Source: Sphingorhabdus pulchriflava (GTDB lineage: Bacteria > Pseudomonadota > Alphaproteobacteria > Sphingomonadales > Sphingomonadaceae). Taken from it: 64,000 nucleotides of DNA. Position numbers and translations under genes: made by a program. The number at the start of each line of letters is the position of its first letter. The first letter of the stretch is position 1. Positions 20,291-47,032 of this stretch are shown here, piece after piece. The stretch lies in contig NZ_QRGP01000001.1 of assembly GCF_003367235.1 (NCBI RefSeq), positions 1,736,001 to 1,800,000 of the forward strand, read 5' to 3'. Below the pieces are notes generated by a model, which was not told the origin of the DNA, searched no databases, and worked only from the letters and a program-made list of their open reading frames with translations.

Positions 20291-20309
20291 CGAACAAGGA
20301 AAATCGAAA

Positions 20310-24661: not shown

Positions 24662-25795
24662 TCAATCAGTCCGCCAAAGCCGTGCCTGGCCGGGAGTCAT
24701 GCCGTACCATTGGCGGAACGACCGCCCGAAACTCGACATGTCGGTGAAGCCCAATGCTCTGGCGATTTCGGCAAGGCTGATGGATGTATTGCCGATCAGC
24801 TCGGAAGCGATCAGTCGCCGTTCTTCCTCCACAATCTTGTGAAAGCTTGTGCCGTGGGCCGCCAAGGTTCGCACCAATGTCCGTTCCGAAACGCGTTCGC
24901 TGGCAGCGACCTGTTTCAACCGTGGAACCCGGTTTTCTGTCTCCATCGCCTTGCAGATGACGGCGCGGATTCTGTCTACGACTTCAGATTGATTACAATC
25001 TCGTTCCATTAGCGCGACGCGTTCAAGGGCGAAATTCCAGAATGCTGGATCGGTTTGTGAGTTTCTAGCTTTAAGCCAATCTGGATCCCCCGCCATTGCG
25101 TAGATTCCGGCGTCGAACTGCTTGGTGCCGGGCAAACTATCCAGAAAGGCCGATATTCTCCCCTGCCTTTTTGCTGCAAAGCTGAATTTTATTTGCTCGA
25201 CTACATCTGGGCGGAAAAAATCTATGAATCGCTGAAAGCTGCATAGATAGGCTGTGGAGGCAAATTCCAGCAACGGCCCGTGTTCAATTTCACTTTCAAT
25301 AGCTATTGAAAACTGACGTTCATCGACCTGAAGCCTCATCTTCACATAAGGCGTCGTCACTTCCGTTGATCTTTTGGCGAGCAACAGCGCGTCGTGCAGG
25401 CTAGGCGCGTTATACAGCGCTGGTGCAACAACGGGCGCGCCTGTGATCTTGGAATCCCCTGACAGCCGCAACAGCATTTCCACAGCGGCGCCGTGATCGA
25501 CAATGTTGGCTATGACAATAAGGTCGTCGGCAACGCTGATCCGGTCGGGAAAACCTGGCCCTTGAACCAATGTGGTGCCATTTTTGAACCATTCAGGCCA
25601 GCCTAGCCATTCCCCAAATTGCACCAGAGCGACTGGAGGAATTTGCTGTCGCGATTTCGGTCCCAAAGCTTCAATTACGGCATAGGCATTTGTCAGCGCC
25701 TCGATTGACGGACGATAGCCGACAAAATTGCCCGGGGGGACAAAACTGTCCGCACGTCCGGTTGCAAAATCGGCTGTATTTTGTCGCAGACCCAT
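24662..25795 (-). CDS. AraC-family transcriptional regulator
   Basis: 377-residue regulator. Residues about 20-215 resemble the N-terminal domain found in OruR/ArgR-like AraC members (PSLHDALLLAKRS). The C-terminal 90 residues hold the double HTH, with ERTLVRTLAAHGTSFHKIVEEERRLIA, ISLAEIARALGFTDMSSFGRSFRQWYGMTPGQ. ATG 25793-25795 with AGGGG upstream is preferred over a TTG at 25840. It is divergent from the lipoprotein gene at 26069 and is a candidate regulator of the envelope genes that follow. Confidence 0.88.
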   Translation of the reverse strand: MGLRQNTADFATGRADSFVPPGNFVGYRPSIEALTNAYAVIEALGPKSRQQIPPVALVQFGEWLGWPEWFKNGTTLVQGPGFPDRISVADDLIVIANIVDHGAAVEMLLRLSGDSKITGAPVVAPALYNAPSLHDALLLAKRSTEVTTPYVKMRLQVDERQFSIAIESEIEHGPLLEFASTAYLCSFQRFIDFFRPDVVEQIKFSFAAKRQGRISAFLDSLPGTKQFDAGIYAMAGDPDWLKARNSQTDPAFWNFALERVALMERDCNQSEVVDRIRAVICKAMETENRVPRLKQVAASERVSERTLVRTLAAHGTSFHKIVEEERRLIASELIGNTSISLAEIARALGFTDMSSFGRSFRQWYGMTPGQARLWRTD

Positions 25796-26068
25796 GCGCG
25801 CCCCTAAATTTTCCTGCCCTGCACAGGCATGAATTTCCAATCGAACGCGACCTTGTTGTTTTTACATTTGTTAAACTGCGGCAGTCGGATGGACAAGGAA
25901 ATTGCCGAAACTGCACATGCACAGACTTGACCTTTTCGGCCAGACCTTGGCCTCGAATGTCCAAAGGATGGCATCATTTGTCGATGTCCTGCGATTTTAC
26001 AATCGGGCAAGTTACGGGTGCATCGTTTGCCGCTGCAAGATTGCAGCGCGAAATCGGAGGATGATAAA

Positions 26069-26740
26069 ATGAAGCTTCGCATAATATCAACTTTGCCAGC
26101 AATGGCCGCATTATGCCTGGTGAGCGCATGCCAGCAAGGCGGGGAAAACCCTGCAGCCGCTGACGCGACCGTAGCGAGCTGGCCCGCCAGCTTGAACGTG
26201 ATGGGCGATGGATTTCCGAACCCCGGCGATACCTGCCGCAAAATCGGCGAAACCGCAGCGACGGTGAATTATCTGGATGACAGCGCGACGCTGGCAGGAT
26301 GCCTTTCGGCGGATGCTGCCGCCAAGCTGGGTGGCAAGATTGTCGGCACGGTTGACGGCGTAACGCTCGTCTCGGTTCCAAACTCCGCAACTCAGGCGGG
26401 CGATGGCGATAGCAAGGGCGACGCTAAGGTGGCTGGCACCAATTACAACGCGACCGCGCAGATTAAATGCGCAGGCTACAAAGGCGCGGCGGCAGGCATG
26501 TGTGACGCTGGCGTTGTGCGCAACGGTGAAACAGGTACCTATATCGACGTGATCCTGCCAGGTGGTGGCAAACGCACCATATTGTTCAACAAAGATGGCA
26601 GCTTCCTGACTTTCTCAACCGCTGAAGCCGACGGCACAGCCGCGATGAAAGTAGGCTCCAAGCGTGACGGCGACACGACGATCGCGACCCTCGGCGCCGA
26701 ACGGTACGAAATTCCTGACGTCTTTGTGCAGGGCGACTGA
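26069..26740 (+). CDS. Putative lipoprotein, unknown function
   Basis: 223-residue exported protein with a lipobox-like signal (ALCLVSAC, Cys about residue 21). The mature part has scattered cysteines (DTCRKIG, AGCLSADAA, IKCAGYKGAAAGMC) and Gly-rich beta-strand-like sequence. A strong GGAGG lies before ATG 26069. No family recognised. It heads a run of four plus-strand envelope genes spaced 20-50 bp apart, probably one operon. Confidence 0.72.
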   Translation: MKLRIISTLPAMAALCLVSACQQGGENPAAADATVASWPASLNVMGDGFPNPGDTCRKIGETAATVNYLDDSATLAGCLSADAAAKLGGKIVGTVDGVTLVSVPNSATQAGDGDSKGDAKVAGTNYNATAQIKCAGYKGAAAGMCDAGVVRNGETGTYIDVILPGGGKRTILFNKDGSFLTFSTAEADGTAAMKVGSKRDGDTTIATLGAERYEIPDVFVQGD

Positions 26741-26786
26741 GCCGGAGATCCGAAGCTTCGACCGCAATTTTTGAAGGGGAACCAGC

Positions 26787-27452
26787 ATGGACTTTATGAA
26801 GCTCCTCAAATCGCTTGAGGAACTGCTGTATGAAGTCATGGTCATGCTGGTTTTCTATCCGAAGACCTTGTGGCTGACCTTCCGCTATCCGCAGCGGATG
26901 ATGGACTATGCCGACACCGAATTGGGCGATGTCCAGTCCGAGCAATATAATGACACGCTCAGTCCGCCGCTGTTTTTGATGATCTGTCTGGCAATCAGCC
27001 ACATGATCGAAATCACCACATTGGGTAATAACGCAACAGCGGCTTTACCCTCTTTTCTTAAAACGACGGAAAATCTGCTGGCATTCCGGGTGTTGGTGTT
27101 CAGCGTCTTTCCGCTGATGATGGCGTTGCGGCTTTTGTACGGGTTGAAGGAGCCATTGAACCGGGAGACCCTGCGCGCGCCTTTTTATGCCCAATGTTTT
27201 GTGACGGCACCGCTCGCGATGGCCTTCGGCATTTCACAGTCGCTGCGCCATACAACCATTCCTTATGTCGATCAGGCGGCGACGGCCCTGACTGTAGTGG
27301 CCTTGGCCTGGTATATTCGGCAGCAAGCGCATTGGTTCAAAGCCAAGCTGAATGTCAGCACGTTGCGCAGCTGGACAATGTCCGTGGTGATTTTTGTTTT
27401 GACCATCATCCTGCTGATTTTGGCCGCAGCGCCACTCATTCTATCGACCTGA
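26787..27452 (+). CDS. Multispan membrane protein, Yip1/permease-like
   Basis: 221-residue integral membrane protein with about five hydrophobic helices (PPLFLMICLAISHMI, FRVLVFSVFPLMMALRLLYG, FVTAPLAMAFGISQSL, ALTVVALAWYI, VVIFVLTIILLILAAAPLI). An amphipathic N-terminus contains the motif FYPKTLWLTFRYP. Such proteins are usually annotated as permeases or Yip1-like; no substrate can be named. The gene sits 46 bp after the lipoprotein gene and 20 bp before the CPBP protease gene. Confidence 0.68.
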   Translation: MDFMKLLKSLEELLYEVMVMLVFYPKTLWLTFRYPQRMMDYADTELGDVQSEQYNDTLSPPLFLMICLAISHMIEITTLGNNATAALPSFLKTTENLLAFRVLVFSVFPLMMALRLLYGLKEPLNRETLRAPFYAQCFVTAPLAMAFGISQSLRHTTIPYVDQAATALTVVALAWYIRQQAHWFKAKLNVSTLRSWTMSVVIFVLTIILLILAAAPLILST

Positions 27453-27472
27453 ACTTTTTAAGGGAGGACACC

Positions 27473-28270
27473 ATGCCTGATACGACCAAGCGGCTCTTAA
27501 TCGCAATCGGTGCGGTTGCCATCTGGGTTGCCATCACCATGGGGGTGGGGTTGATTCAGGTCGCTCCCGGAACGCCGCTCGACAAATTTGCTTCCGAGCA
27601 GATTGTTTGGGGGACCCCCATGGCGGCAGCATTCATGCTGCTGGTTGCGTGGATGATGGGCTGGCGCGATCTGGGTTTCAACAATGCCCGACCGCTGCGG
27701 TCATGGCGCCTGATCTGGCTGCCTATGCTCCTGATAATCGGCTTTGTCGGCGTGGCAATACTGTTGGACAGGCCCGTTCCCGTATCGGTTGTGCTGATCG
27801 TGGCCATCAACACTATGGTGGTCGGATTTAGTGAGGAACTCGCGTTCCGCGGCGTTCTGTGGGGTGCTGCGCGCAAAGCGATGTCGTTCTGGCCAGCCTT
27901 TTTTCTGGTCTGCTTTCTGTTTGGAATTGTTCACGTGCTGAATGCCCTGATGACAGGGCAGTTCGCTGCGGCCGGGGTGCAGGCATTCAACGCCATGTTG
28001 AGCGGCGCAGCATTCCTGGCCATCCGCATTCGCACCCATTCGATCATCCCGGTGATGATCGTTCACTGGTTGTGGGATCTTGCCGTGTTCGTTCTTGCGG
28101 CAGGCCGTGATGGCCCTTCGCCGGTTATCGATCCGATGGACCAGTTAACGGGAGCACTGATGATAGTTGGGCCAATGGCGCTTTATGGCCTGTTCCTTAT
28201 CCGCAACGCCAAGGTCCGCGAAGGTTGGGATGATGACCTTGTTGGCGAGCAAGGCGTGCAAAAATTTTGA
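27473..28270 (+). CDS. CPBP-family intramembrane metalloprotease
   Basis: 265-residue membrane protein of the CAAX-protease/bacteriocin-processing family. Several helices surround the motif SEELAFRGVLWG (paired Glu followed by Arg), the first metal-site His in FGIVHVLNAL and the second in IVHWLWDLAVF. GGGAGG precedes ATG 27473. Members cleave proteins within membranes or give bacteriocin self-immunity; the substrate here is unknown. Confidence 0.88.
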   Translation: MPDTTKRLLIAIGAVAIWVAITMGVGLIQVAPGTPLDKFASEQIVWGTPMAAAFMLLVAWMMGWRDLGFNNARPLRSWRLIWLPMLLIIGFVGVAILLDRPVPVSVVLIVAINTMVVGFSEELAFRGVLWGAARKAMSFWPAFFLVCFLFGIVHVLNALMTGQFAAAGVQAFNAMLSGAAFLAIRIRTHSIIPVMIVHWLWDLAVFVLAAGRDGPSPVIDPMDQLTGALMIVGPMALYGLFLIRNAKVREGWDDDLVGEQGVQKF

Positions 28271-28284
28271 AGAGGAGAAAGTTC

Positions 28285-28704
28285 ATGAAAATCAGGCATA
28301 TTTTGGCGACTGCAGTTGTGCTGGGTGGTGTCATGCTGGTGCAACCTGCTGCCCTCCAAGCACAAGGTGCAGCAGCACCGATCAGGGTTCAATTCGCAAA
28401 AGGAACCAGCTCAAAGACAATCAAGACTTCAATCCGCGGCGACCAGTCCAAGCTCTATGTCGTGAACGTCCGCGCTGGCCAAAAGCTGACGGTAAAGCTG
28501 ACCCCTAGCAATGCCTCCAACTATTTTAACATCACGGCCCCCGGCGCGCAGCAGGCGCTGTTTATCGGCTCGACCGAAGGCAACAGCTATACAGGCGTCG
28601 TGCCGTCATCGGGTGACTATAAGATCGATGTGTATTTGATGCGCAATGCGGCACGACGCAATGAAACGTCAAACTACACGCTGGTGATAGGTGCGCGCAA
28701 TTAG
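28285..28704 (+). CDS. PliI/PliG-like periplasmic lysozyme-inhibitor homologue
   Basis: 139-residue exported protein. A signal peptide ending in LQA precedes a compact beta-sandwich: VQFAKGTSSKTIKTSI, LYVVNVRAGQKLTVKL, NYFNITAPG, then GDYKIDVYLMRNAARRNE. That last motif is the typical core of proteins annotated as lysozyme inhibitors (PliI/PliG-like) or, in older records, DNA breaking-rejoining protein. Inhibition of lysozyme is inferred from family resemblance only. AGAGGAG lies before ATG 28285. Confidence 0.65.
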   Translation: MKIRHILATAVVLGGVMLVQPAALQAQGAAAPIRVQFAKGTSSKTIKTSIRGDQSKLYVVNVRAGQKLTVKLTPSNASNYFNITAPGAQQALFIGSTEGNSYTGVVPSSGDYKIDVYLMRNAARRNETSNYTLVIGARN

Positions 28705-28853
28705 TCGTTTTGTAACACGCATTGGCAGTCTGGCAATCGAAAATGGCGCAGAATGTCTATCGCATGTCATCAAATGTAAATTGTAGCGCCGGACGGTTCG
28801 GCCCATCCTGCGGGCAAGAAGACTTTTTCGACTCAATGAATGAGGGCTAATTT

Positions 28854-29657
28854 ATGAAGAAGACGGGGAAATTGGCAGCAACAATGTTGGCATCGGCTGC
28901 GATGCTGGCGCAATCAACGGTGGCCTTGGCCGAAACGCCGGGTTCGGTTCGCGATCTGGTCGGTGCTCGGGCGGCAGGTGGCGAGTCCACTTTGGCAGAG
29001 CGCGGCTTCACCATGCATCATGGAACTACCAAGAATGACAGCAAGATTGGATATTGGTGGAATCCGAACACCAAGGAATGCGTCAGCGTCACGACCTATG
29101 ACGGCAAATTTGAAGCGATCAAAAAAGTATCAGCTTCCGATTGCGGTCAAAAATCAAGTAACAATGATGCTGGTGTTGCGGTTGCGGTCGGCGCTGCGGC
29201 TATATTGGGCGCCATCGCGCTGTCGCACAAATCCGACCACCACAATGATAGCAACCACTACAACGATTCCCAGCGTGAGGCCGACTACGAACGCGGCTAT
29301 CGTGATGGTCTGTATAACCAAGCCTATCACAATTATGGCCGATCGGACGCTTACTCTGACGGTTATTCGTCGGGCGTTGAACAGCGTGGCCATGAAACCA
29401 GCTATCGCAACAATAACCACCATAGCGGTGGCTATGTCGCGAATGTCTATGTCGGCGATCTGAACGGCCAGTCACGCGACAATGCGACATCGCAATTGAT
29501 GAGCCGCGGCTTTGTGATGCGCGATGACAAACGCACCGACGATGGCCGGTATCGCACTTTCTGGAATGCCAGCTCCAAGCAGTGCCTCGTGATGGTGTCG
29601 CGCAACGGATATGTCAGTTCTCTCGATCATGTATCGAAAAGTACATGCCGCGATTGA
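28854..29657 (+). CDS. Exported protein with a duplicated domain
   Basis: 267-residue protein with a signal peptide ending in ALA. Two copies of the same roughly 65-residue domain flank a His/Asn/Tyr-rich middle. Copy 1 (about 30-98) has VRDLVGARAAGGESTLAERGF, YWWNPNTKECV and SASDC. Copy 2 (about 198-265) has VGDLNGQSRDNATSQLMSRGF, FWNASSKQCLVMV and SKSTC. Between them are a short hydrophobic Ala-rich segment (GVAVAVGAAAILGAIAL) and a polar repeat-like linker (YERGYRDGLYNQAYH). Each copy keeps two cysteines. Function unknown. Confidence 0.75.
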   Translation: MKKTGKLAATMLASAAMLAQSTVALAETPGSVRDLVGARAAGGESTLAERGFTMHHGTTKNDSKIGYWWNPNTKECVSVTTYDGKFEAIKKVSASDCGQKSSNNDAGVAVAVGAAAILGAIALSHKSDHHNDSNHYNDSQREADYERGYRDGLYNQAYHNYGRSDAYSDGYSSGVEQRGHETSYRNNNHHSGGYVANVYVGDLNGQSRDNATSQLMSRGFVMRDDKRTDDGRYRTFWNASSKQCLVMVSRNGYVSSLDHVSKSTCRD

Positions 29658-29694
29658 CCCCGTGGAAACCCTAAGTACCCGAGAGAAGTAGACT

Positions 29695-31278
29695 GTGGCG
29701 AAGCTGCGAGGCACACACCCCTTGAAGCTTCGCCATTTTTTTGTACCGGGCGTCATCTCGGCTATTGCCGCTATGGGCTCTGCGGCGGCAGCTGCACCAT
29801 TAGGACAGAAGCAGCAATCTGAAGTTGAGATGGCCTCGCACGCTGTTGTCAGCGGCGTTACCGTTTATGACCCAGAACAGCTGCTCAAATTTGCCTCCGC
29901 CCACAGTCGAGCAGAAGATGCGACAGTCAGTGCCGAAAAAATTGCTGAAGCCATTGAACTCATCTACCGCGAAGACGGCTATGCGCTGGCCGAGGTCACG
30001 CTGGCTTATAGTCAGGATGGAAATCCAGTCTTACGCGTCGATGAAGGACAGCTGAAAGCCGTCTCTATAACCGGCTTGCAACCCCGGACCGAGAGCCGGG
30101 TCCGGAGCTATGCGGAGAAACTCCTGGTCAAAACTCCGCTGCAACTGCGCGATCTTGAACGGGCCTTGATGTTATCGTCTGATTTGGCAGGCGTCGCCAT
30201 TGCTAACCAGATTTCGCCCGACTCGTCCGGACGCGGGTCGGTGCTCGCGATACATGGCGCTGAAAACACAACGTCGGGGGCTGCAGGTATCGAAGTTGTT
30301 CCGATCCGCCCAGGCTCTGCCGTCAGGGGCTATGTTGTTCAGGAATTTTATGGCGCGATCACCGGTGGCGATATGGTGAGGATTTTGGGCCAAGCAACGC
30401 TCGATCGGGGCGATGACTGGTCAGTTTCGGGTATGGCTTATTATCGCACGCCGGTTGGTTCGAATGGCACATATATTGAGGCTATGGGCGGTAACACTGT
30501 TGCCCGCAGGGATTTTGCCAACATCACACAGGACAGCCGCCTGACGGGCTGGAATGCAGCATTTGTCATCGGGCATCCGATCGAGCGAAGCCTGACCGAT
30601 TTCACCTATTTGCTCGCCGAATATGAATTTGTCGATGCACGCTCCCGGTTTCTTGGCCAAAAACTGCGGAGCAGCACGCATGCCCTGCGGCTGCGGGCAT
30701 TGAAAGGCACCGATCTAGCGGATGGCAGCCTGTTTCGCGCGGCGGCAACGCTCAGCGGCGGAACCCGGCCAGATGCGGTCCCCGGCAGACTGCCCGACGG
30801 TGCCAAGTCCTTTGCCCACTTTCGCAGTGAAATCGGCTTGGCGGTTCCGCTCGACAAGAAACAGCTGACCAGCCTCAGGGTTGAATTTCGCGGCCAATGG
30901 GCGTCGACACGCCTGCCCGAGGTGGAACGCATCTCGATGGGGCACGCTCCGTTTCTGCGTGGCTATGCGCCTGCAGAGGTAGCGGGCGATCGGGGATATG
31001 GAGCAACCGTTGAAATAGCGCGTAGTGCTGCAACCGGTAACGGTTCGGTTCCTGCGATCACGCCATTCGCCTTTGGCGCACTTGGCTATACCGATATCAT
31101 CAAGCCTCGGCTTGGCGAACGGACGTTGAACACGGTCACCTCGATCGGCTTCGGCAGCAGTTTTCATATCAAGGGCGGCATTCACCTTTCCGGTTGGGCC
31201 GCCGTTCCATTGCGCGATGGGCCACAATCCCGCTCAGGCAATCCTGCTTTCCATGCCAGTGTAACGGTTGGGTGGTGA
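29695..31278 (+). CDS. ShlB/FhaC/HecB-family outer membrane translocator
   Basis: 527-residue protein starting at GTG 29695 (GAGAGAAG upstream) with a signal peptide. A POTRA_2-like part (about 55-160, including YREDGYALAEVTLAYSQDG and VDEGQLKAVSI) precedes a 16-strand-type barrel ending in aromatic VGW. The TpsB hallmark FLRGYAPAEVAGDRGY is present. TpsB proteins thread a large partner across the outer membrane. The next gene starts two bases later and is the obvious partner, but it lacks a TpsA secretion domain. Confidence 0.85.
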   Translation: MAKLRGTHPLKLRHFFVPGVISAIAAMGSAAAAAPLGQKQQSEVEMASHAVVSGVTVYDPEQLLKFASAHSRAEDATVSAEKIAEAIELIYREDGYALAEVTLAYSQDGNPVLRVDEGQLKAVSITGLQPRTESRVRSYAEKLLVKTPLQLRDLERALMLSSDLAGVAIANQISPDSSGRGSVLAIHGAENTTSGAAGIEVVPIRPGSAVRGYVVQEFYGAITGGDMVRILGQATLDRGDDWSVSGMAYYRTPVGSNGTYIEAMGGNTVARRDFANITQDSRLTGWNAAFVIGHPIERSLTDFTYLLAEYEFVDARSRFLGQKLRSSTHALRLRALKGTDLADGSLFRAAATLSGGTRPDAVPGRLPDGAKSFAHFRSEIGLAVPLDKKQLTSLRVEFRGQWASTRLPEVERISMGHAPFLRGYAPAEVAGDRGYGATVEIARSAATGNGSVPAITPFAFGALGYTDIIKPRLGERTLNTVTSIGFGSSFHIKGGIHLSGWAAVPLRDGPQSRSGNPAFHASVTVGW

Positions 31279-31279
31279 G

Positions 31280-32851
31280 ATGACGGTGAATCGCAGACAT
31301 CTCTATTGGTCCTTGGCAACAACTATTGCCCTTGGCGCGGCGGTCACCCTTCAGGCGAACCCGCATCGTGGATGGTGCATTGGCGTGGGAAATCCACATC
31401 GCAGCACCAGCTGCTCGTCAACAACCCCGGTCGTCACCCCTCCGGACGTACAGCCCCCGCAGGTAACGCAACTGCCCCCGCAGCCGAACTTGATCGTTCA
31501 AACCCCGCCACAAGTCACTGTGCCGTCAATACCTTACATTCCCAAGCGGCCGCCGAACAGCAGGCATCCTGTTACGATTGTGCAACCCCCGATCGCACAA
31601 CCGCCGTTGCCGCAACCGCAAACTCCGCAGCAAGGCCCGACGGTGACGCCGCCGCTTCAGCAGCCACCGGTGATGCAGCCCATCGCACAACCACCCATGC
31701 CGCAACCGCAAACACCGCAGCAGGTCCCGGTTGCTATCCCGACACCCCGGCAACCTCCGGTGGTCGCGCCGATGTTGCAACCACCGCTCGTGCAGCCTCC
31801 AACGCCGCAGCAAGGTCCGATGGTGCAGCCGCCACTGGTGCAACAGCCGCCGGTACTCCAGCCGGTGCTGCAACCGCCCCTGCCGCAACCGCAAACACCG
31901 CAGCAAAGCCCAGCGGTGATGCCACCCCTTCAGCAACCACCGTCGCTGCAACCGGTTCTGCAACCACCGCTGGTGCAACCACAGATACCGCAGCAGGTCC
32001 CGGTTGCTATCCCGACACCGCAGCAACCTCCGGTGGTCGCGCCGATGTTGCAACCACCGCTCGTGCAGCCTCCAACGCCGCAGCAAGGTCCGATGGTGCA
32101 GCCGCCACTGGTGCAACCACCGACGACCCGGCCGATAGTGCAACCACCCTTACCGCAGCCGCAAGTGCAGCAACAGGTTCCGATCGCGGTGCCGCCGCTT
32201 CAGCAGCCTCCCGTTATGCAGCCCGTGCTCCAACCACCGCTGACGCCCAATGGTAGCACTGCAGTCGTCATTCTAACGCCCTTACCGGATCCGGGTTTTT
32301 CGGTTTTGGGCGGGGGGCAGGTTCCGGCCAAGGCTGAGACGGGTATTTCGGTGACGCTCCAGCCGACTGCTGGCCAGATACAGAACCCGGTCGTCCATCG
32401 CCCTCGGCCGTACACTAAGCCGGTCGATAGCCCTACGGTCACGCAACCGCCTGTTGTTCTCAAACCGCTCGATCAGCTGGATTATGTTACGCCCGGCGGA
32501 GGCCAGCGACCGATAACTTCTGGCAACAACCAGACTACGATTTACCAACCCGTTGGTGATCCGAAACTTAACCAGCTCGATCCATTGTTGCACGTAGCAA
32601 CTGAGGCAGGTCGTCATCCTGCGCATAATCTGCCTGCCTTCGAAACGCCCAGCGGAGCGGCGCAATGCCTGTTGAGCGGCTTTGGCCGACGTTATTGGAT
32701 TGATGACAAGGGCGTTCGTCACGAAACCGGCATACCCGCTTCGCTGCGCGGTTTTGGACCAATCATGCGCGATGTGCCTGCATTCACCCATCATTCGGCT
32801 GGCTGTGTTCTTCTGGTTTACCGCCGGGAGGATCGTCAGGAACGGAATTAG
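31280..32851 (+). CDS. Repeat-built Pro/Gln-rich exported protein
   Basis: 523-residue protein starting two bases after the translocator stop. A signal-like N-terminus (WSLATTIALGAAVTL) is followed by two cysteines and a roughly 280-residue region of degenerate PQ/PP repeats (units like QPPLPQPQTPQQ). The C-terminus is less repetitive, with two copies of a PGGGQ motif (YVTPGGGQRPITSGNN and the earlier VLGGGQVP) and two cysteines (QCLLSGFGRRYW, GCVLLVYRRE). It does not resemble TpsA haemagglutinins. The strongly biased composition keeps other frames open too (for example 31306-32256), which are shadows. Confidence 0.7.
   Translation: MTVNRRHLYWSLATTIALGAAVTLQANPHRGWCIGVGNPHRSTSCSSTTPVVTPPDVQPPQVTQLPPQPNLIVQTPPQVTVPSIPYIPKRPPNSRHPVTIVQPPIAQPPLPQPQTPQQGPTVTPPLQQPPVMQPIAQPPMPQPQTPQQVPVAIPTPRQPPVVAPMLQPPLVQPPTPQQGPMVQPPLVQQPPVLQPVLQPPLPQPQTPQQSPAVMPPLQQPPSLQPVLQPPLVQPQIPQQVPVAIPTPQQPPVVAPMLQPPLVQPPTPQQGPMVQPPLVQPPTTRPIVQPPLPQPQVQQQVPIAVPPLQQPPVMQPVLQPPLTPNGSTAVVILTPLPDPGFSVLGGGQVPAKAETGISVTLQPTAGQIQNPVVHRPRPYTKPVDSPTVTQPPVVLKPLDQLDYVTPGGGQRPITSGNNQTTIYQPVGDPKLNQLDPLLHVATEAGRHPAHNLPAFETPSGAAQCLLSGFGRRYWIDDKGVRHETGIPASLRGFGPIMRDVPAFTHHSAGCVLLVYRREDRQERN
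31718..32123 (+). repeat. Direct repeat of 273-bp period in the Pro-rich gene
   Basis: The segment beginning CAGCAGGTCCCGGTTGCTAT at 31718 recurs at 31991, an exact 273-base (91-codon) offset, with about 130 bases nearly identical (one visible difference near 31746/32019). The period keeps the reading frame, so the gene can expand or contract by whole units. Shorter PQ-coding repeats fill the rest of 31600-32230. Confidence 0.85.
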
Positions 32852-32894
32852 CTAGGATACCAATTTATTCGTCCTCGATCGAAGGGAGCAAGAA

Positions 32895-34949
32895 ATGAAA
32901 ATTAGCCTCAAATCAGGGTTCTGCCTCACCGCAGCCATTTGTACCCTGGTGATATCCTCCCCTCTTGCGGCACAGCAGACCACGGAAAAGGCAGCGATTG
33001 GGACATGGGGCGTCGACACGACCAACATGTCCAAAACGGTAAGCGCCGGTGATGATTTCTATCGCTATGTCAACGAAGGCTGGCTGAAAACGGCAAAAGC
33101 CCCAACTGGCATTCCGTATATCGACGCCTTCGTTGAAGTGTATCTCTCCACAGAACAGCGTGTCGGCGGAATTATTGCTGAAGCGCGGGAAACTACCGAT
33201 GCACCGGGCAGTCCAGAACAGATGATTGGCGATTTTCATCGATCAGCTTCTGATATGGAACGCCGAAACGCGCTTGGCATTACACCTATCGCGAGCACCT
33301 TATCGATTGTGGCAGGCACGACTGACCGCAACGACATCGCGCGAATCATGGCCTATCCTTGGATTGACGGGTTCATGGGCGGCGGCGTTCTCGCCAATGC
33401 GAACGATCCCACCAAACAAATGGCGGCTGTAGGTGTGGGCGGGTTAACGATGCCGTCGCGCGATTATTACCTCGCCGATGCCGAGCCCTATATTGGTCAT
33501 AGAAAGGCATTGCTCGAATACATCGCTTCAAGTCTACGTCGTGCCGGGATCGACAATCCGGACGCGCGCGCTGAAAAAATCATGGCACTGGAATTGGAAA
33601 TAGCAAAGCGCCAGTGGAGTCTGGGCCAACAGCGCGATGTCGTCGCAATGAACAATGTGATGACGCCCGCTCAATTGAAGGCGTACGCACCTGGTTTCCC
33701 ATGGGATGTCTTTCTCGCCGAGATGCAGTTCGACACACAGTCACAAATCAAGGTTACGACCGACACCGCAACCCGCGACATCGCAAAATTGTTCGCAGAG
33801 ACCCCTGTGGCCGATCTTCAATCGTTCCTGACCTACAAAACACTCGACGCATGGGCAGATTCATTGTCCGAACCCTGGGTGCAGGCGCATTTCGAGTTTC
33901 ATGGAAAAAGAATGCAGGATACCTCCGAACGTCGTCCTGCGGAACTCGAAGCCATTGCATCGGTCAATGCAGCGCTAGGTGAAGAAATCGGCAAGGCATA
34001 TGTAGCCGAATATTTCGGAGCGTCTGACCGCGCCAAGGTTCAAGAAATGGTCGGCTATCTGCGCGACACCTATCGCGCCCGTATCCAGAAACTCGAATGG
34101 ATGGATGAGCCGACCCGTGCTGAAGCATTGGTCAAGCTCGAAAAGGTCGCGAGCTATATTGGCTATCCTGAAAAATGGCATGACCGATCTAACGTTCGAA
34201 TTACCGCGGACGACTATGTCGGCAACCAAAACCGCCTGATTAATTGGGTGCGCGCTGACAATCTGAAGAAGCTGACCGAACCAACGCGCAGCTGGGAATT
34301 CCCATATAGCCCGCAGGAAATCAATGCAGGTTACAGCCAGTCGAAAAACTCGATAACGTTCCCTGCCGGTGTCCTCCAACCTCCATTTTTTGACCCCAAG
34401 GCTGATGCAGCGGTAAACTTCGGTTCAATTGCCGCAGTAATAGGCCATGAATTTGGACATGGCTTCGACGATCAAGGCAGCCGTTCCGACGGCGAGGGCA
34501 AAATACGCGACTGGTGGACCAAGGCTTCGCGCGCCGAGTTCGAAAAGCGGACGGCTGGTCTGGTCGACCAGTTCAACCAATATGATGCGCTACCCGGTCT
34601 AAAGATCAATGGACGCCAAAATCTGGGCGAGAATATTGGCGATCTCGGGGGGCTCTCGGTTGCTTACGCCGCCTACCAAACTTACGTCAAAGAGAAGCAA
34701 GGCGGCAAGGCACCTGTCATTGGTGGTTTTACAGGTGATCAACGCTTCTTCCTTGCTTGGGCGCAACTCTGGCGCAATATCACAAGCGAAGGCGAGACGC
34801 GTCGACGCACCTTATCCGACCCACACAGCCCCGGCGAATTCCGTGTAAACGGCATCGTGCGCAATGTTGATGCCTGGTATAAGGCGTTCAATGTGAAGCC
34901 GGGCGACAAGCTTTACCTGCCGCCGGAACGGCGCGTGCGCATCTGGTGA
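32895..34949 (+). CDS. M13-family zinc metallopeptidase (neprilysin-like)
   Basis: 684-residue exported peptidase with a signal peptide ending in LAA. It has the M13 N-terminal domain (DDFYRYVNEGWLK) and the zinc site HEFGH (about residue 519, IGHEFGHGFDDQGS). The downstream Glu motif is GENIGDLGG (about 579), and FPAGVLQPPFF and the C-terminal PGDKLYLPPERRVRIW are also typical. It cleaves peptides in the periplasm or outside. AAGGGAG lies before ATG 32895. Catalytic residues look complete. Confidence 0.95.
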   Translation: MKISLKSGFCLTAAICTLVISSPLAAQQTTEKAAIGTWGVDTTNMSKTVSAGDDFYRYVNEGWLKTAKAPTGIPYIDAFVEVYLSTEQRVGGIIAEARETTDAPGSPEQMIGDFHRSASDMERRNALGITPIASTLSIVAGTTDRNDIARIMAYPWIDGFMGGGVLANANDPTKQMAAVGVGGLTMPSRDYYLADAEPYIGHRKALLEYIASSLRRAGIDNPDARAEKIMALELEIAKRQWSLGQQRDVVAMNNVMTPAQLKAYAPGFPWDVFLAEMQFDTQSQIKVTTDTATRDIAKLFAETPVADLQSFLTYKTLDAWADSLSEPWVQAHFEFHGKRMQDTSERRPAELEAIASVNAALGEEIGKAYVAEYFGASDRAKVQEMVGYLRDTYRARIQKLEWMDEPTRAEALVKLEKVASYIGYPEKWHDRSNVRITADDYVGNQNRLINWVRADNLKKLTEPTRSWEFPYSPQEINAGYSQSKNSITFPAGVLQPPFFDPKADAAVNFGSIAAVIGHEFGHGFDDQGSRSDGEGKIRDWWTKASRAEFEKRTAGLVDQFNQYDALPGLKINGRQNLGENIGDLGGLSVAYAAYQTYVKEKQGGKAPVIGGFTGDQRFFLAWAQLWRNITSEGETRRRTLSDPHSPGEFRVNGIVRNVDAWYKAFNVKPGDKLYLPPERRVRIW

Positions 34950-35164: not shown

Positions 35165-35374
35165 CTACCACAAATATCGCATAACCTTCGAAATGCATTT
35201 TTCGACGACTTGAGATGATTGAGCAAATCTGTCCGTGGTTTGGCGGCTTTGCTTTACCTCTAAGTAACCGCACCATGAGCATCTTGCCGCAGGATTGCTC
35301 TCAATATTCGCATTGCCTTCAATATGTCCGCATAATGGGCAGGTTTTGGTGTTTAGAAAGCGGAATATTCTCAT
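35165..35374 (-). CDS. Small zinc-ribbon-like protein coupled to cobA
   Basis: 69-codon frame whose ATG (35372-35374) overlaps the cobA stop as ATGA. It encodes two CxxC knuckles about 17 residues apart, CPLCGHIEGN and CSWCGYLEV, as in small zinc ribbons. There is no strong ribosome site, but the overlap suits translational coupling. The C-terminus is unremarkable. It could be chance; conservation at this locus would decide. Confidence 0.4.
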   Translation of the reverse strand: MRIFRFLNTKTCPLCGHIEGNANIESNPAARCSWCGYLEVKQSRQTTDRFAQSSQVVEKCISKVMRYLW

Positions 35375-36156
35375 GTGACTGCCGCTGTCTTCGCAGTGTC
35401 GTACGCCGTCGATAATGATGGCGGGAGTGGACGTACTGCCTCGCCGATTATCAAAACTGCTGGCCCATCTGTGACTGAGGCGCTTGTTGCTATAGCCAGT
35501 AGATCTAACCGAGTCCGAACCTTTCGTTCGTTCGGTAAGCTGGCGTTTTCGACAATCAAGGCCGGTGTATTCCGATTGAGCCCAGCTTGCATCAGTTCAT
35601 CAGCAGCATCTTTGGCTGCGGCTTTTCCCATATAAATGACGAGCGTCGATGCCGGATCCGCCAAAGCTGCCCAATCGGTTGCGTTGCAATCTTCTGCACT
35701 TAAATGAGCTGTGACAAAGGTAAGCTTTCTAGCGCTCCCTCTCAAAGTCAGCGATGCACCAGCAGACGCGACAGCAGCGCTGGCTGCTGTTATTCCAGGG
35801 CAAATCCGGACAGGTACGCCCTGCAAAGACAAGTGTTCGATTTCCTCGGATGTACGAGCGAAAATTGCAGGGTCGCCACCTTTCAACCGAACCACTCGTT
35901 TCCCTGATCGGGCAGCAGAGAGGAGCAGATCGTTGATGCTTTTCTGATCTTTCGAATGTCGACCGGATCGTTTGCCGACACTTACCCTCTCAACATGTTG
36001 GGGTATGATTTCCAAAACGCCCTTGCCGACCAGCGCATCGTAGAAGACAATATTTGCGGCAGTGATCAGCTTTTCCGCCTTGCGGGTCAGCAGGTCGGGG
36101 TCACCGGGGCCGGCACCTACCAGCCAGACGGTTCCGGGTTCGATTGTGTCAGGCAT
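35371..36156 (-). CDS. cobA: Uroporphyrinogen-III C-methyltransferase
   Basis: 261-residue SAM-dependent enzyme making precorrin-2, the precursor of the siroheme needed by NirB. Seen are VWLVGAGPGDPDLLTRKA, YDALVGKGVLEI, RLKGGDPAIFART and the PGITAASAA region. The start ATG at 36154-36156 overlaps the nasA stop, with AAAGGAGC ahead of it; upstream in-frame extensions lie inside nasA. No precorrin-2 dehydrogenase/ferrochelatase is fused, so that step must come from elsewhere. It is the last clear gene of the nitrate operon. Confidence 0.93.
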   Translation of the reverse strand: MPDTIEPGTVWLVGAGPGDPDLLTRKAEKLITAANIVFYDALVGKGVLEIIPQHVERVSVGKRSGRHSKDQKSINDLLLSAARSGKRVVRLKGGDPAIFARTSEEIEHLSLQGVPVRICPGITAASAAVASAGASLTLRGSARKLTFVTAHLSAEDCNATDWAALADPASTLVIYMGKAAAKDAADELMQAGLNRNTPALIVENASLPNERKVRTRLDLLAIATSASVTDGPAVLIIGEAVRPLPPSLSTAYDTAKTAAVT

Positions 36157-38734
36157 AGGCCGGGCTCCTTTCGGTTTCGAGCATGCGGGCGATGGCAGGG
36201 CGGCACGAACCGCAATTGGTGCCTGCGTTAAGGGCAGCGCCAACGGCTTCGACGCTGGTGAGCGTTTCAGCGCGGATGGTTTCAAGGATCGTTTTCATGC
36301 CCACATCGAAGCAGACACAGACTATGGGCCCTTGATCGGCCTGTGGTGTAACAGGCCGACCGGCGAGTAATTCGAGGGAAGAAGCTTTCTCGCCGCCCAA
36401 TTGATCGACCAACCAGTCGCGCGGCGGCAGCCCGCCATCGCGGGCGACGAAGAGCGCACCCTGCAACTGCCCGCCGGCAACTACCGCCGCGCGCATGATG
36501 CCGCGCTTGGAATCGCTTACCTCGGCGCGGTCGCCGGCTGGCAGCAGCGAAAGCAGCGCATCGGGCTCGCTATCCCCAGCCAGTTCAACCAGCCAGCCAT
36601 GTGCGGTGCGCACCCGGGTCCAATAGGTGCAGGCCGGAATGGCGGGCATTGCCCTGCTGACCAGAAACCCGGTCCAGCGGGGTAACCATGTGCGGACGGT
36701 TGCAGGCGTGTTCTTGAAGCCGGGCTGTCCCGAAACCGGATCGCGATCCTGCGCGGGCAACAGGCCGGTGCGACCGCCTCCGCTGGTCTGGTCGGTCCAG
36801 TGCATCGGAACGAACAGGTCGCGCCGTCGCTGATTGTCGGTTGATGCCACGCGGAACACGCTTTTGCCCTGTCCGGTTTCAACCATCGCCAACCCGCCAT
36901 CGTCGAGACCAAAGCGCGCGACCATATCGGGATGCACCTCGACCAGCGGCTCGCGACGGTGCTGTGACAATTTGGGCGACAGGCCGGTGCGCGTCATCGT
37001 GTGCCACTGGTCACGATAGCGACCTGTATTGAGCCGCAGTGGATAGTCCAGCGCGCCATCATCGCGCGCCTGATAACGGACCGGCACAAGCCGTGCCTTC
37101 CCGTCAGGGGTCGAAAAGCGTCCCGATGCCAGCGGCGAAGTGCCGCCCCACAAAAAGGGCTGCATCGCATCATAGTCCGCATCGCTGATGCCGTCCTTGT
37201 CCGAAATATCGAGCAGACGCGCGCCACCATTTTCAAAGCCGGTTTGCGCGGCATATTCGCGGAAGATCGCGGCGGCATTCGGATAGCTAAACCCATCGAC
37301 CCAACCCATGCGCTTGGCCACCTCAGACACAATCCACCAATCAGGCTTGGCATCGCCGGGAGCCTCCAGAAAACCGCGCTGGCGCGAGATGCGCCGCTCG
37401 CTGTTGGTGACTGTCCCGTCCTTTTCACCCCAGCCCAAGGCAGGTAATTTGATATGGGCGAAGGCGGTGGTGTCGGTGTCGCCGATACAATCGGAAACCA
37501 CCACCAGCGGACAGGCAGCCAGTGCTGCGCGCACCGCATTGGCATCGGGCATCGATACCGCAGGGTTGGTCGCCATCACCCAGATCGCCTTGATCCGGCC
37601 ATCGGCGACCGCATTGAACATGTCGACCGCCTTCAGCCCGGGGCCGGGGCAGATTGTGGGCGATTGCCAGAAGCGTTGCGCGCAGTCGCGCTCGGCATCG
37701 CTGAAACCCATATGCGCGGCGAGCATCGAGGCGAGCCCGCCAACCTCTCGCCCGCCCATGGCATTGGGCTGACCGGTGATGCTGAACGGTCCGGCACCCG
37801 GCTTGCCAATGCGTCCGGTCGCCAGATGCAGGTTGATGATCGCATTGCCCTTGTCGGTGCCCGAAACCGACTGGTTCGCGCCCTGGCTGAACAGCGTGAC
37901 CGTGCGCGGCGTTTCGGCAAAGAGATCGTAAAAGGCATCTAGCTGCGCCTGCGACAGTTCGCATACCTTGGCGACATCCACTGTCTCCAATTCCCAAAAA
38001 CCCTCCGGCACAGACACATGCTGCGCTAGATAGGCACCGTCTAGCTGCCAGCGGGATTTCATCTCGCGCAGCAGCCCGTTGAACAGCGCGACATCGCTGT
38101 CGGGCGCAATGGGCAGATGCAGGTCGGCCCGCTCCGCCGTTTCGGTGCGGCGGGGGTCTATCACAACCAGCTTGGTTCCGCGCTGCTCGCGCGCGGCCTC
38201 GATCCTTTGCCAAATCACCGGATGGCACCAAGCGGTGTTTGAACCGAGCAGCAGGATCAGATCGGCCTCTTCCAGATCGCTGTAGGAACAGGGAACCACA
38301 TCCTCGCCAAAGGCGCGGTTGTGCGCGGCCACCGCGCTTGCCATGCATAGTCGGCTGTTGGTGTCGATATTGCCTGAGCCGATAAAGCCTTTCATCAGCT
38401 TGTTGGCGACATAATAATCTTCGGTCAGCAGCTGGCCAGATACGTAAAAGGCAACGCTATCTGGCCCATGCTGGGCTATGGTTGCCTTGAAGCCATCGGC
38501 CACAGCCTGCAGCGCCGCGTCCCAGCCGACTTGCCGGCTACCGACTTCAGGATGAAGCAGCCTCCCTTCGAGCGCTATGGTCTCGCCCAGATGGGTACCT
38601 TTGGAACAGAGTCGCCCGAAATTGGCGGGATGGCTTTCATCGCCGCGGATTTTTGCGCTGCGTTCTCCGGTGGGCGTTGTGACGATGCCGCAGCCGACGC
38701 CGCAATAGGCGCAGGTGGTTTTTACCCGCCTCAC
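36149..38734 (-). CDS. nasA: Assimilatory nitrate reductase catalytic subunit
   Basis: 861-residue cytoplasmic molybdopterin enzyme reducing nitrate to nitrite. The N-terminal [4Fe-4S] motif TCAYCGVGCGI leads to CSKG; the Mo-bisMGD body shows SNTAWCHPV and ATNPAVSMPDANAVR; a molydopterin-dinucleotide domain (RDQWHTMTRTG) follows. A C-terminal BFD-like [2Fe-2S] domain (VCVCFDVGMK, GTNCGSCRPAIARML) gives the long NasA form. It starts at GTG in a GTGA overlap with nirD. No Tat signal is seen, which argues for assimilation. Confidence 0.95.
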   Translation of the reverse strand: MRRVKTTCAYCGVGCGIVTTPTGERSAKIRGDESHPANFGRLCSKGTHLGETIALEGRLLHPEVGSRQVGWDAALQAVADGFKATIAQHGPDSVAFYVSGQLLTEDYYVANKLMKGFIGSGNIDTNSRLCMASAVAAHNRAFGEDVVPCSYSDLEEADLILLLGSNTAWCHPVIWQRIEAAREQRGTKLVVIDPRRTETAERADLHLPIAPDSDVALFNGLLREMKSRWQLDGAYLAQHVSVPEGFWELETVDVAKVCELSQAQLDAFYDLFAETPRTVTLFSQGANQSVSGTDKGNAIINLHLATGRIGKPGAGPFSITGQPNAMGGREVGGLASMLAAHMGFSDAERDCAQRFWQSPTICPGPGLKAVDMFNAVADGRIKAIWVMATNPAVSMPDANAVRAALAACPLVVVSDCIGDTDTTAFAHIKLPALGWGEKDGTVTNSERRISRQRGFLEAPGDAKPDWWIVSEVAKRMGWVDGFSYPNAAAIFREYAAQTGFENGGARLLDISDKDGISDADYDAMQPFLWGGTSPLASGRFSTPDGKARLVPVRYQARDDGALDYPLRLNTGRYRDQWHTMTRTGLSPKLSQHRREPLVEVHPDMVARFGLDDGGLAMVETGQGKSVFRVASTDNQRRRDLFVPMHWTDQTSGGGRTGLLPAQDRDPVSGQPGFKNTPATVRTWLPRWTGFLVSRAMPAIPACTYWTRVRTAHGWLVELAGDSEPDALLSLLPAGDRAEVSDSKRGIMRAAVVAGGQLQGALFVARDGGLPPRDWLVDQLGGEKASSLELLAGRPVTPQADQGPIVCVCFDVGMKTILETIRAETLTSVEAVGAALNAGTNCGSCRPAIARMLETERSPAYA

Positions 38735-39120
38735 GCCATCCCCTGCAACGCCTCGCGTCGCCCGATCAGTATGCTGCCACCGTCAATCTTGACGGGGATG
38801 ACGGGGACGCATCCCTTGTCTTCGCCCAGCGCCTCGCCGGTCAACAGGCTGATCCGCCAATTGTGCAGCGGGCAGGTGACCGTCGTGTCGTGCACGATGC
38901 CCTGCGACAGCGGCCCGTGCTTGTGCGGACATTTGTTGATCAGCGCATAGACCTGTCCATTGGCGGTGCGGAAAATGGCAATTTCCTCACCCCCCTGCAC
39001 CGGCAGGGTGCGTGCACCCAAGGCAGGCAACTGGTCCACGGGGCCGATGTCGAGCCATTCTGCGATCATGCTGGTTTCCGTCGGTTTCGGTTCTTCGATA
39101 AGGACGAGCGCAGCACTCAT
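38731..39120 (-). CDS. nirD: Nitrite reductase small subunit (Rieske type)
   Basis: 129-residue small subunit of NADH nitrite reductase. The Rieske [2Fe-2S] ligands are intact: CPHKHGPLS and CPLHNWRI. It overlaps nirB (ATGA) and nasA. The first 15 or so residues before MIAEWLDIG are extra, so an internal start at that Met is possible. Confidence 0.93.
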   Translation of the reverse strand: MSAALVLIEEPKPTETSMIAEWLDIGPVDQLPALGARTLPVQGGEEIAIFRTANGQVYALINKCPHKHGPLSQGIVHDTTVTCPLHNWRISLLTGEALGEDKGCVPVIPVKIDGGSILIGRREALQGMA

Positions 39121-41573
39121 GCCGCACCGCCCACCACCGCAAAGGGACGGATTTCGGCTATATGCTGGTGCAGATGTGCCTCACTGCCTGCGGCGCGTTC
39201 GGCCCAGGGGTCTTTTTGCAGGAAGCTTTGCGCATGATGGAAACGCCGCGCCAGTTCGGCCCGTCCTTCGCCATCGTCGACGATTCGCGTCTTCACATAT
39301 TCAAGGCCCACCCGTTCGACCCAGGGCGCGGTGCGGTCGAGATAGCGGGCTTCCTCGCGGTAAAGCTGGATGAAGGCGGCGCAATAATCGAGCGCCTCCT
39401 GTTCGGTTGCCACCTTGCACAACAGGTCGGTGCCGCGCAGATGGATGCCGCCATTGCCGCCGATGTGCAGCTCATAGCCGCTGTCAACGCAGATCACGCC
39501 GAAATCCTTGATCGTGGCTTCGGCACAATTGCGCGGGCAGCCAGAGACGGCGATCTTGAACTTGTGCGGCATCCAGCTGCCCCAGGTCATCTGTTCGGTC
39601 TTGATGCCAAGGCCGGTAGAATCCTGCGTGCCAAAGCGGCACCATTCGGAACCGACACAGGTTTTCACCGTGCGCAGCGCCTTGCCATAGGCATGGCCGC
39701 TGACCATTCCGGCCGCATTGAGGTCTGCCCAGATGGCGGGCAAATCCTCTTTCTTGATTCCAAAAATATCGAGCCGCTGGCCGCCGGTCACCTTCACCAT
39801 GCGCGCCTTATATTTATCGCAGGCATCGGCAATCGCGCGCAATTCGTCGGGCGTGGTAACCCCGCCCCACATGCGCGGAACGACCGAATAGGTGCCATCC
39901 TTCTGGATATTGGCGTGCATCCGTTCGTTGACGAAGCGGCTCTGCATATCGTCGACATGGCTTTCGGGCCAGGCGCAGAGCAGATAATAATTGAGCGCCG
40001 GGCGACAGGAGGAACAGCCGTCGGGTGTGCTCCAGCTTAGCGCCTGCATCACCTGCGGAATGACCCTCAATTCCTTTTCGACAATCGCTTTGCGCACATC
40101 TTCATGCGTGAAACTGGTGCATTTGCACATCGGCTTGACCGGCCGTTCCTCGTCATGCCCGGCCAGCTTCAGCAGGTTTTCGACAAGGCCGGTGCAGCTG
40201 CCGCAGCTGGCCGATGCCTTGCAGCCAGATCGCACCGCATCAAGCGAACCCGCTCCACCCGATATGCAGGCCATGACCTGCCCCTTGGATACGCCGTTGC
40301 AGCCGCAAATCTCGGCATCGTCCGAAAGCGCTGCAACGGCATCAATAGGGTTTGCAGAAGCGCCGCCCCCAGCAAAAGCCTGCCCGAAAATCAGCGCATC
40401 GCGAATGTCGCTGACATCTTCCTGTTTCTTCAGCAGGTCGAAATACCAGTTGCCGTCCGCGGTGTCGCCGTAGAGCACTGCGCCGACGACCTTGTCGCCC
40501 TTTACGATCACCCGCTTGTACACACCGCGGGTTGCATCGCGCAGCACGATGTCTTCGCAGCCTTCGCCACCTGAAAAGTCGCCTGCGGAAAAAACGTCGA
40601 GGCCTGCCACCTTCAGCTTGGTCGAGGTTACCGAGCCTCGATAGCCCTTGGGTTCGGCGACCAGCCCGTCGGCAAGGCTACGGCACATGTCCCACAGCGG
40701 CGCGACAAGGCCGTACACATTGCCATCATGTTCGACGCATTCGCCAACCGCGAGAATATCGGGATCGCTGGTCACCATATTGTCATCGACATGGATACCG
40801 CGTCCGATGGCCAGCCCAGCCTCCTTTGCCAGCGCGGTTGCAGGGCGGATACCAACCGCCATGACCACGATCGAGGCAGGGATTTCGCGCCCGTCTTTCA
40901 ACCGGATGCCTTCGACCTTGCCCTCGCCATAAATTTCCGCTGTGTCAGCGCCGGTCAGGATCGTCTGGCCGCGCCCTTCTAGCGCGTCTTTCAACAGCCA
41001 GCCTGCCGCTTCGTCCAACTGCCGTTCCATCAGCGTCGGCATGAGGTGGATGACGGTGACTTTCATGTTCCTGAGGCTGAGGCCATGTGCGGCCTCCAGC
41101 CCCAGGAGCCCTCCCCCGATAACAACCGCATCGCCACCCCGGTTGGCGGCCTCCAGCATCGCCCCCACATCGTCCATGTCGCGGAAGCTGATGACACCCG
41201 GCAAGTCCTTACCTGGAACCGGTATGATGAACGGGTCGGAACCCGTTGCGATCAACAGCTTGTCATAGCTTTCGATGCGTCCGGATTTGGCGGCGATAGT
41301 TTTGGCGACCCGGTCGATTGCCGTAACCGAGTCGCCTGCGACCAGTTCGATACCATTTTTATCGTACCAGTCATGGCCGTTGATCACTATGTCTTCGAAC
41401 GACTTTTCGCCCGCGAGCAGCGGCGACAGCATGATGCGATTATAATTGACGCGTGGTTCCGCGCCGAAAATGGTGATGCGGAACTTGCCTGCATCGCGCG
41501 CCAATATTTCCTCCACCGCGCGACACCCGGCCATGCCGTTGCCGATCACTACAAGATGCGGTCGTTCGCTCAT
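39117..41573 (-). CDS. nirB: NAD(P)H nitrite reductase large subunit
   Basis: 818-residue siroheme enzyme taking nitrite to ammonium. An FAD/NAD(P) module (VVIGNGMAGCRAVEEIL, VVIGGGLLGLEAA) is followed by two BFD-like [2Fe-2S] regions (EICGCNGVSKGQ with CGSCTG; PMCKCTSFTHEDV with GCSSCRPAL). The ferredoxin-reductase half and the siroheme/[4Fe-4S] ligands come next (TCVGSEWCRFG, SGCPRNCAEA). Length and order are normal for NirB. It lies 11 bp after the porin gene. Confidence 0.96.
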   Translation of the reverse strand: MSERPHLVVIGNGMAGCRAVEEILARDAGKFRITIFGAEPRVNYNRIMLSPLLAGEKSFEDIVINGHDWYDKNGIELVAGDSVTAIDRVAKTIAAKSGRIESYDKLLIATGSDPFIIPVPGKDLPGVISFRDMDDVGAMLEAANRGGDAVVIGGGLLGLEAAHGLSLRNMKVTVIHLMPTLMERQLDEAAGWLLKDALEGRGQTILTGADTAEIYGEGKVEGIRLKDGREIPASIVVMAVGIRPATALAKEAGLAIGRGIHVDDNMVTSDPDILAVGECVEHDGNVYGLVAPLWDMCRSLADGLVAEPKGYRGSVTSTKLKVAGLDVFSAGDFSGGEGCEDIVLRDATRGVYKRVIVKGDKVVGAVLYGDTADGNWYFDLLKKQEDVSDIRDALIFGQAFAGGGASANPIDAVAALSDDAEICGCNGVSKGQVMACISGGAGSLDAVRSGCKASASCGSCTGLVENLLKLAGHDEERPVKPMCKCTSFTHEDVRKAIVEKELRVIPQVMQALSWSTPDGCSSCRPALNYYLLCAWPESHVDDMQSRFVNERMHANIQKDGTYSVVPRMWGGVTTPDELRAIADACDKYKARMVKVTGGQRLDIFGIKKEDLPAIWADLNAAGMVSGHAYGKALRTVKTCVGSEWCRFGTQDSTGLGIKTEQMTWGSWMPHKFKIAVSGCPRNCAEATIKDFGVICVDSGYELHIGGNGGIHLRGTDLLCKVATEQEALDYCAAFIQLYREEARYLDRTAPWVERVGLEYVKTRIVDDGEGRAELARRFHHAQSFLQKDPWAERAAGSEAHLHQHIAEIRPFAVVGGAA

Positions 41574-41584
41574 TCGATTGTCCT

Positions 41585-42808: not shown

Positions 42809-42853
42809 ATCATTCTCCCTGAAGTTGGCCTTCAGGCATTCTCACCCAATGAT

Positions 42854-44512: not shown

Positions 44513-44524
44513 GATGGCCAATCC

Positions 44525-45520: not shown

Positions 45521-45521
45521 G

Positions 45522-46913: not shown

Positions 46914-46955
46914 GAAATTCCCCTTCGTTCGATGCTGATTGCCTCGGCACAAACC

Positions 46956-46995
46956 AAAAAGGCCGCGAGCATCGGGTTGTTCCCGATACCGCGGC
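46956..46995 (-). terminator. Intrinsic terminator in the nrtA leader
   Basis: Read on the minus strand: GCCGCG-G-TATCGGG, loop AACAA, CCCGATG-CT-CGCGGC, then CTTTTT, a 13-bp stem followed by a U-run, ending 43 bases before the nrtA start. With the hairpins at 47033-47081 it forms an attenuator that NasT should overcome. Confidence 0.82.
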
Positions 46996-47032
46996 GCCAT
47001 TGCCATATGCCATTGGAAGCTGGCCGCTAAAC

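Follow-up and report, generated by a model that had tools for sequence, protein, structure and literature searches.

Can a transporter of the TpsB family work with a partner that bears none of the marks of a TpsA protein? The question arises at a locus of Sphingorhabdus pulchriflava, within a window of 64,000 nucleotides (the whole stretch of DNA analysed here), where a TpsB gene is directly followed by a gene for an exported protein rich in proline and glutamine. The accepted model for two-partner secretion (TPS) has the POTRA domains of the transporter recognise a TPS domain of about 250 residues; vectorial folding of a beta-helix outside the cell is believed to provide part of the drive for export without ATP. 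A sequence-only reading of the locus had described the gene order, a one-base gap, a 523-residue Pro/Gln-repeat protein and cysteine pairs at both of its ends, all of which were borne out at the right coordinates (Table 1).

Table 1 Features of the locus, with positions counted along the window
Feature	Position	Strand	Basis
Duplicated block, second copy diverged	24665..34949 (about)	.	Second copy at the starts of C2 and C3
TpsB/ShlB-family outer-membrane transporter, GTG to TGA, 527 aa	29695..31278	+	ORF reading, PF03865, AlphaFold, Foldseek
POTRA1, residues ~51-116, clade motif YREDGY	29845..30042	+	Model secondary structure, clade alignment
POTRA2, residues ~120-190	30052..30264	+	AlphaFold model
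16-stranded beta-barrel, residues ~193-526; loop-6 (L/M)RGY at 421-424	30271..31272	+	Model, alignment
Exported Cys-capped Pro/Gln-repeat partner, ATG to stop, 523 aa	31280..32851	+	ORF reading; pairing in 11 loci
Conserved mature N-terminus NPHRGWCIGVGNPHRSTSC, C33 and C45, Cx11C	31358..31414	+	N-termini comparison
Pro/Gln tandem array, ~30-aa unit	31589..32164	+	TRF, repeat search
C-terminal conserved module: C463, C509; SGxGRR ... R(D)xP ... C ... RR	32570..32848	+	Alignment

The whole gap between the transporter stop and the partner ATG is a single G. Over the repeat, a 316-aa ORF in the +1 frame and a 205-aa antisense ORF are also open, and we discarded both as by-products of stop-poor repeats. 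The named partner frame is taken as real because the ratio pN/pS between two paralogous copies is 0.36 for the N-terminus and 0.24 for the C-terminus; the corresponding value for TpsB is 0.24, and these low ratios indicate that both proteins are under purifying selection.

The paralogues belong to a block of roughly 10 kb and nine genes that is present twice in the genome (24665-34949 and L036/L035), in the order AraC-type regulator (minus strand), lipoprotein-like, Yip1-like, Rce1-like (CPBP) and PPC-like proteins, a Cys-pair protein at 28854-29657, TpsB, the Pro/Gln protein and an M13 peptidase. The second TpsB, 74% identical and with its GTG start kept, lies at the start of contig C2, and the second partner gene is split over the starts of C2 and C3, its pieces being 64% and 58% identical to the ends of the window protein. 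Since the second block copy is divided between the starts of both contigs, C2 and C3 probably adjoin through the partner's repeat. The window genome (G000) has only two ShlB-family genes, each in such a pair. Upstream of the block, genes at 16161-23018 read like an F-type conjugation or type IV secretion region (TraN-, TraH- and TraG-like), and 35371-47006 reads as a nitrate/nitrite assimilation cluster with a uroporphyrin methyltransferase, nitrate and nitrite reductases and an ABC transporter.

We considered the Cys-pair protein at 28854-29657 as a third component. It is exported and carries Trp/Cys-pair segments in duplicate; its copy in the paralogous block is 90% identical, and homologues (G032, G022, G045, G370, G447, G982) show no constant linkage to the pair. 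Outside the window genome a homologue lies near the pair only in L047/L048. The candidate was rejected, as its homologues are unlinked in G447, G370 and G982 and occur in genomes where no pair was found. No flanking gene was constantly beside the pair in other genera.

The sequence-only reading had looked to recurrence across Sphingomonadales as a check on the pair, and the pair does recur there and beyond the order, at 11 loci overall and with a stop-to-start distance of -1 to +16 nt in all of them. These comprise the two paralogous loci of the window genome, the genomes G315, G447, G370, G621 and G982, two uncultured Sphingomonadaceae, a metagenome-assembled genome (MAG) and Falsiroseomonas algicola. 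Searching 397 genomes of the family with the last 93 residues of the partner returned G315, G447 and G370 besides the window's own, and a profile of the C-terminal module gave E-values of 2.3e-44 to 1.3e-38 in G000 and G315. The start of the partner lies one base past the TpsB stop in G315, and the two genes overlap as ATGA in G447; in G370, TpsB is found where contig C1 ends, the break falling inside the partner repeat, and the 3' end of the partner opens contig C3. Three further matches were set aside: one to the partner C-terminus on contig C2 of G370, which is weak, has an internal stop codon and lies on the strand opposite a coding ORF; one in G1039, a chance match antisense to a different gene; and one in G314 at chance level (E = 7e-4 in 259 genomes).

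A scan of the contig collection with the window TpsB alone returned nothing, and with a 4-row TpsB alignment it returned four loci, in the two uncultured Sphingomonadaceae, the MAG (labelled Gammaproteobacteria) and F. algicola; at each, a Cys-motif partner comes next and the contig ends inside its repeat. Among 385 alphaproteobacterial genomes, a DNA pattern written for the N-terminal motif had matches in two, the window genome and G621, a member of another family. A TpsB gene lies directly upstream of the motif in G621, which was found from the partner motif alone and thus confirms the pairing independently. An order-wide search with the TpsB profile added the complete pair of G982. Three independent routes led to the pairing (TpsB profile, partner C-terminus and N-motif DNA pattern). 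Gene order, tight junction, N-terminal Cys motif and, wherever the 3' end was sequenced, the C-terminal Cys pair recur in independent genomes, and the pairing is therefore not due to chance.

The pair is rare, with clade TpsBs in 4 of the 396 genomes of the order-wide sample. TpsBs on plasmids were only distant relatives (~21-25% identical among the matches listed). At six of the 11 loci the contig breaks off within the partner repeat (L036, L035, L045, L047, L048, L049, L050, L057), and because this repeat breaks assemblies, the partner gene is likely to be under-represented in annotated databases.

We also asked which TpsBs keep this company. In a 29-row tree, a branch supported at 100/100 set the ten pair-associated TpsBs apart from the rest, and it was present in 200/200 bootstrap trees. 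Order-wide profile scores were bimodal (pair members 599-762 bits, all others at most 172), and the partner motif was present in none of the 26 next-best TpsB loci inspected. Orthologous translocators beside ordinary TpsA genes, the arrangement that the sequence-only reading had named as counting against it, were not found: a Cys-capped Pro-rich partner stands at 11/11 orthologous TpsB loci, and PF05860 (TPS domain) occurs nowhere in G000, G315, G447, G370 or G621, the last four of which have one TpsB match each, the paired one. Of 15 comparison genomes with other TpsBs, 12 carried PF05860, in most cases beside the TpsB gene. Clade, constant pairing and lack of PF05860 in the five genomes together support the proposal that the two genes form a system of their own, in which the partner is not a TpsA.

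Other TpsBs with non-standard neighbours and no TPS-domain gene in view came up in the same searches. One clade (L014, L015, L018, L022) lies divergently beside genes that read as encoding FecR-like domains, and PF05860 was not found in the genomes G009, G022 and G032. In a further clade, the TpsBs of L012 (after 1992) and L023 (after 2490) are followed by a protein that reads as DUF2341 fused to a MotA/ExbB-like membrane part, and may possibly represent an energised TpsB variant. Both groups resemble the present system in their unusual surroundings but differ from it in falling into separate tree clades and in having neighbours unrelated to a Cys-capped Pro-rich protein.

The transporter itself belongs to the TpsB family by profile, fold and loop-6 motif. 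PF03865 (ShlB) matched the window protein over the cut-off (E = 1.1e-9) and all ten clade members, while its POTRA_2 match was sub-threshold. The AlphaFold model, for which ten clade members were used (mean pLDDT 83.4), has two POTRAs and a 16-strand barrel, with residues 1-42 below 50; Foldseek ranked CdiB (6wil/6wim) and FhaC (4ql0/4qky) at the top, and CdiB and TpsB4 gave the best profile matches among PDB sequences. Loop-6 residues R422 and G423 are invariant in the clade alignment, and all members carry RGY or RGF.

The region ahead of POTRA1 is short in the clade. Signal peptide included, it spans 28-51 residues in eight clade members, compared to 66-112 in the TPS-type TpsBs of relatives, with L016 as the one exception (23 residues, start uncertain). 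For L054 the length is 67, counted from a start codon that is itself uncertain, while L057, truncated by the automatic choice of start, gives no usable length. The region is also short (52-57 residues) in the DUF2341-linked L012 and L023. In FhaC and CdiB it is occupied by helix H1, the pore plug, and a linker (PMC7644211). Judged by its length and by an N-terminus modelled at low confidence, the pair-associated clade seems to lack both H1 and linker.

The partner contains 23.3% Pro and 14.0% Gln, and appears by reading to carry a Sec-type signal peptide; its only cysteines are residues 33, 45, 463 and 509. Its tandem array holds 6.4 copies of a 90-nt unit, with a higher-order unit of 273 nt (TRF). 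The absence of a TPS domain and of beta-helix repeats, as read from the sequence, was upheld: no Pfam or NCBIfam family matched the partner, TPS domain and repeat families included. Directly past the signal peptide, 11 partner N-termini share GWCxGxGNxH and then a second Cys, preceded mostly by NHx, GHHx or NPHx, with 11 residues between the cysteines in ten partners and 10 in Falsiroseomonas. Seven C-termini were sequenced through and read GR, then C..SGxGxR ... R..P ... C....(I/V).RR, with a Cx42-46C pair in 7/7; the stretch from the first Cys onwards measures 54-64 residues.

Between these ends, the length and composition of the linker vary freely (full-length partners span 360-523 aa). It is PQ-rich in most partners and Pro/Thr/Gly-rich in G621, whose whole protein has 15% Pro and 8% Gln. 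Cys spacing is kept while the linker changes, so the alignments identify the two cysteine-bearing ends as the defining parts of the partner and the PQ repeat as one version of a spacer. The description of a PQ-repeat protein with Cys-paired ends is accurate for this locus, but the repeat is not the hallmark of the partner. The C-terminal module was modelled with a pLDDT of 42 and gave chance-level matches only in a profile search against the PDB; a Pfam nuclease-toxin family that came up for one member was discarded (E = 0.21).

Taken together, we consider it probable that the pair is a TPS-like (type Vb-like) system in which this TpsB exports a non-TPS stalk. Both proteins would be made with Sec signal peptides, the transporter being placed in the outer membrane as a modelled 16-strand TpsB barrel with two periplasmic POTRAs, and the partner would be its cargo. 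The short mature N-terminus, HxGWCxGxGNxH...C, may stand in for the TPS domain of some 250 residues in recognition by the POTRAs. The Pro/Gln-rich chain, unlikely to fold compactly, would thread unfolded through the barrel. By analogy with HMW1 and HxuA, the C-terminal Cx42-46C module would fold and form its disulfide in the periplasm, and would lodge the chain in the pore as a surface stalk; the apparent lack of room for H1 and linker would then arise because cargo occupies the pore. Threading could be hampered by disulfide loops at the two partner ends, a point against export. The full account, in which a TpsB without plug helix recognises a disulfide-loop signal of ~20 residues and exports a Pro-rich, intrinsically unfolded chain as a stalk retained in the pore, is one that we hold tentatively and rate a little below even.

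The same two features, a short plug-helix region and Cys pairs at both partner ends that would suit a folded periplasmic element, also fit a partner that acts as a periplasmic accessory (a gate, plug or substrate adaptor) in place of H1, with the true cargo encoded elsewhere. We regard this as unlikely, since five pair-bearing genomes have no TPS-domain protein and the pair has no other constant companion: its surroundings are not the same in the window, L043 and L044, and even the partly conserved 28854-29657 occurs at a distance from the pair as well, and also in genomes that lack it.

TonB spans the periplasm with a Pro-rich linker, and a long extended Pro-rich chain of 360-523 aa between small conserved ends is the design expected of a periplasmic ruler. 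The partner could by this comparison tie the barrel, via the POTRAs, to peptidoglycan or the inner membrane as a structural or sensing device. Past the N-terminal signal peptide, however, neither Pfam nor the sequence revealed a transmembrane anchor, a lipobox or a known peptidoglycan-binding domain, and to our knowledge the characterised TpsBs with the same POTRA-barrel architecture are translocators, which makes such a role still less probable than that of an accessory. An ordinary TPS locus, with the true TpsA elsewhere and the repeat gene as an unrelated neighbour, is conceivable insofar as genomes of relatives often have TPS loci; it is very improbable, being contradicted by pairing that stays constant at 11 loci in differing neighbourhoods and by the lack of a TPS domain in five genomes. 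Open reading in other frames over the repeat could suggest a composition artefact rather than a gene, an idea we dismiss given the signal peptide, Cys ends and frame kept across genera and the pN/pS of 0.24-0.36 at the ends.

Exported as a stalk or not, such a pair was not described in the literature searched, a search with most subscription journals outside its scope. The system is like FhaB/FhaC and CdiA/CdiB (type Vb) in TpsB profile and predicted fold, in the loop-6 RGY, in adjacent genes and in two signal peptides. It differs in that the partner, unlike FhaB and CdiA, is Pro/Gln-rich and Cys-capped and has no TPS domain, NPNG-type motif or beta-helix repeats, and in that the transporter has a short pre-POTRA1 region with no apparent room for the H1 and linker of FhaC and CdiB. 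In HMW1 and HxuA, a C-terminal disulfide-bonded domain kept in the periplasm locks the protein in the TpsB pore (PMC5422565). The partner shares with them a C-terminal Cys-pair segment, here 54-64 residues compared to the 66-residue unresolved anchor of HxuA (PMC5422565), and the proposed retention in the pore; it lacks their TPS domain and beta-helix, and the C-terminal modules are likened without a claim of sequence homology. Because the partner has neither a TPS domain nor a beta-helix, its sequence places the system apart from standard two-partner secretion, as a TPS-like variant whose partner is not a TpsA.

The system is easily overlooked because its repeat breaks assemblies, and it is small, at two genes and ~3.2 kb, which makes it directly testable. 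A TpsB clade whose only constant companion is free of a TPS domain, and too rich in Pro for a beta-helix to be likely, would offer a natural test of which parts of the accepted model are essential. If the full account is true, translocation by TpsB would depend neither on a TPS domain nor on the folding of a beta-helix on the cell surface.
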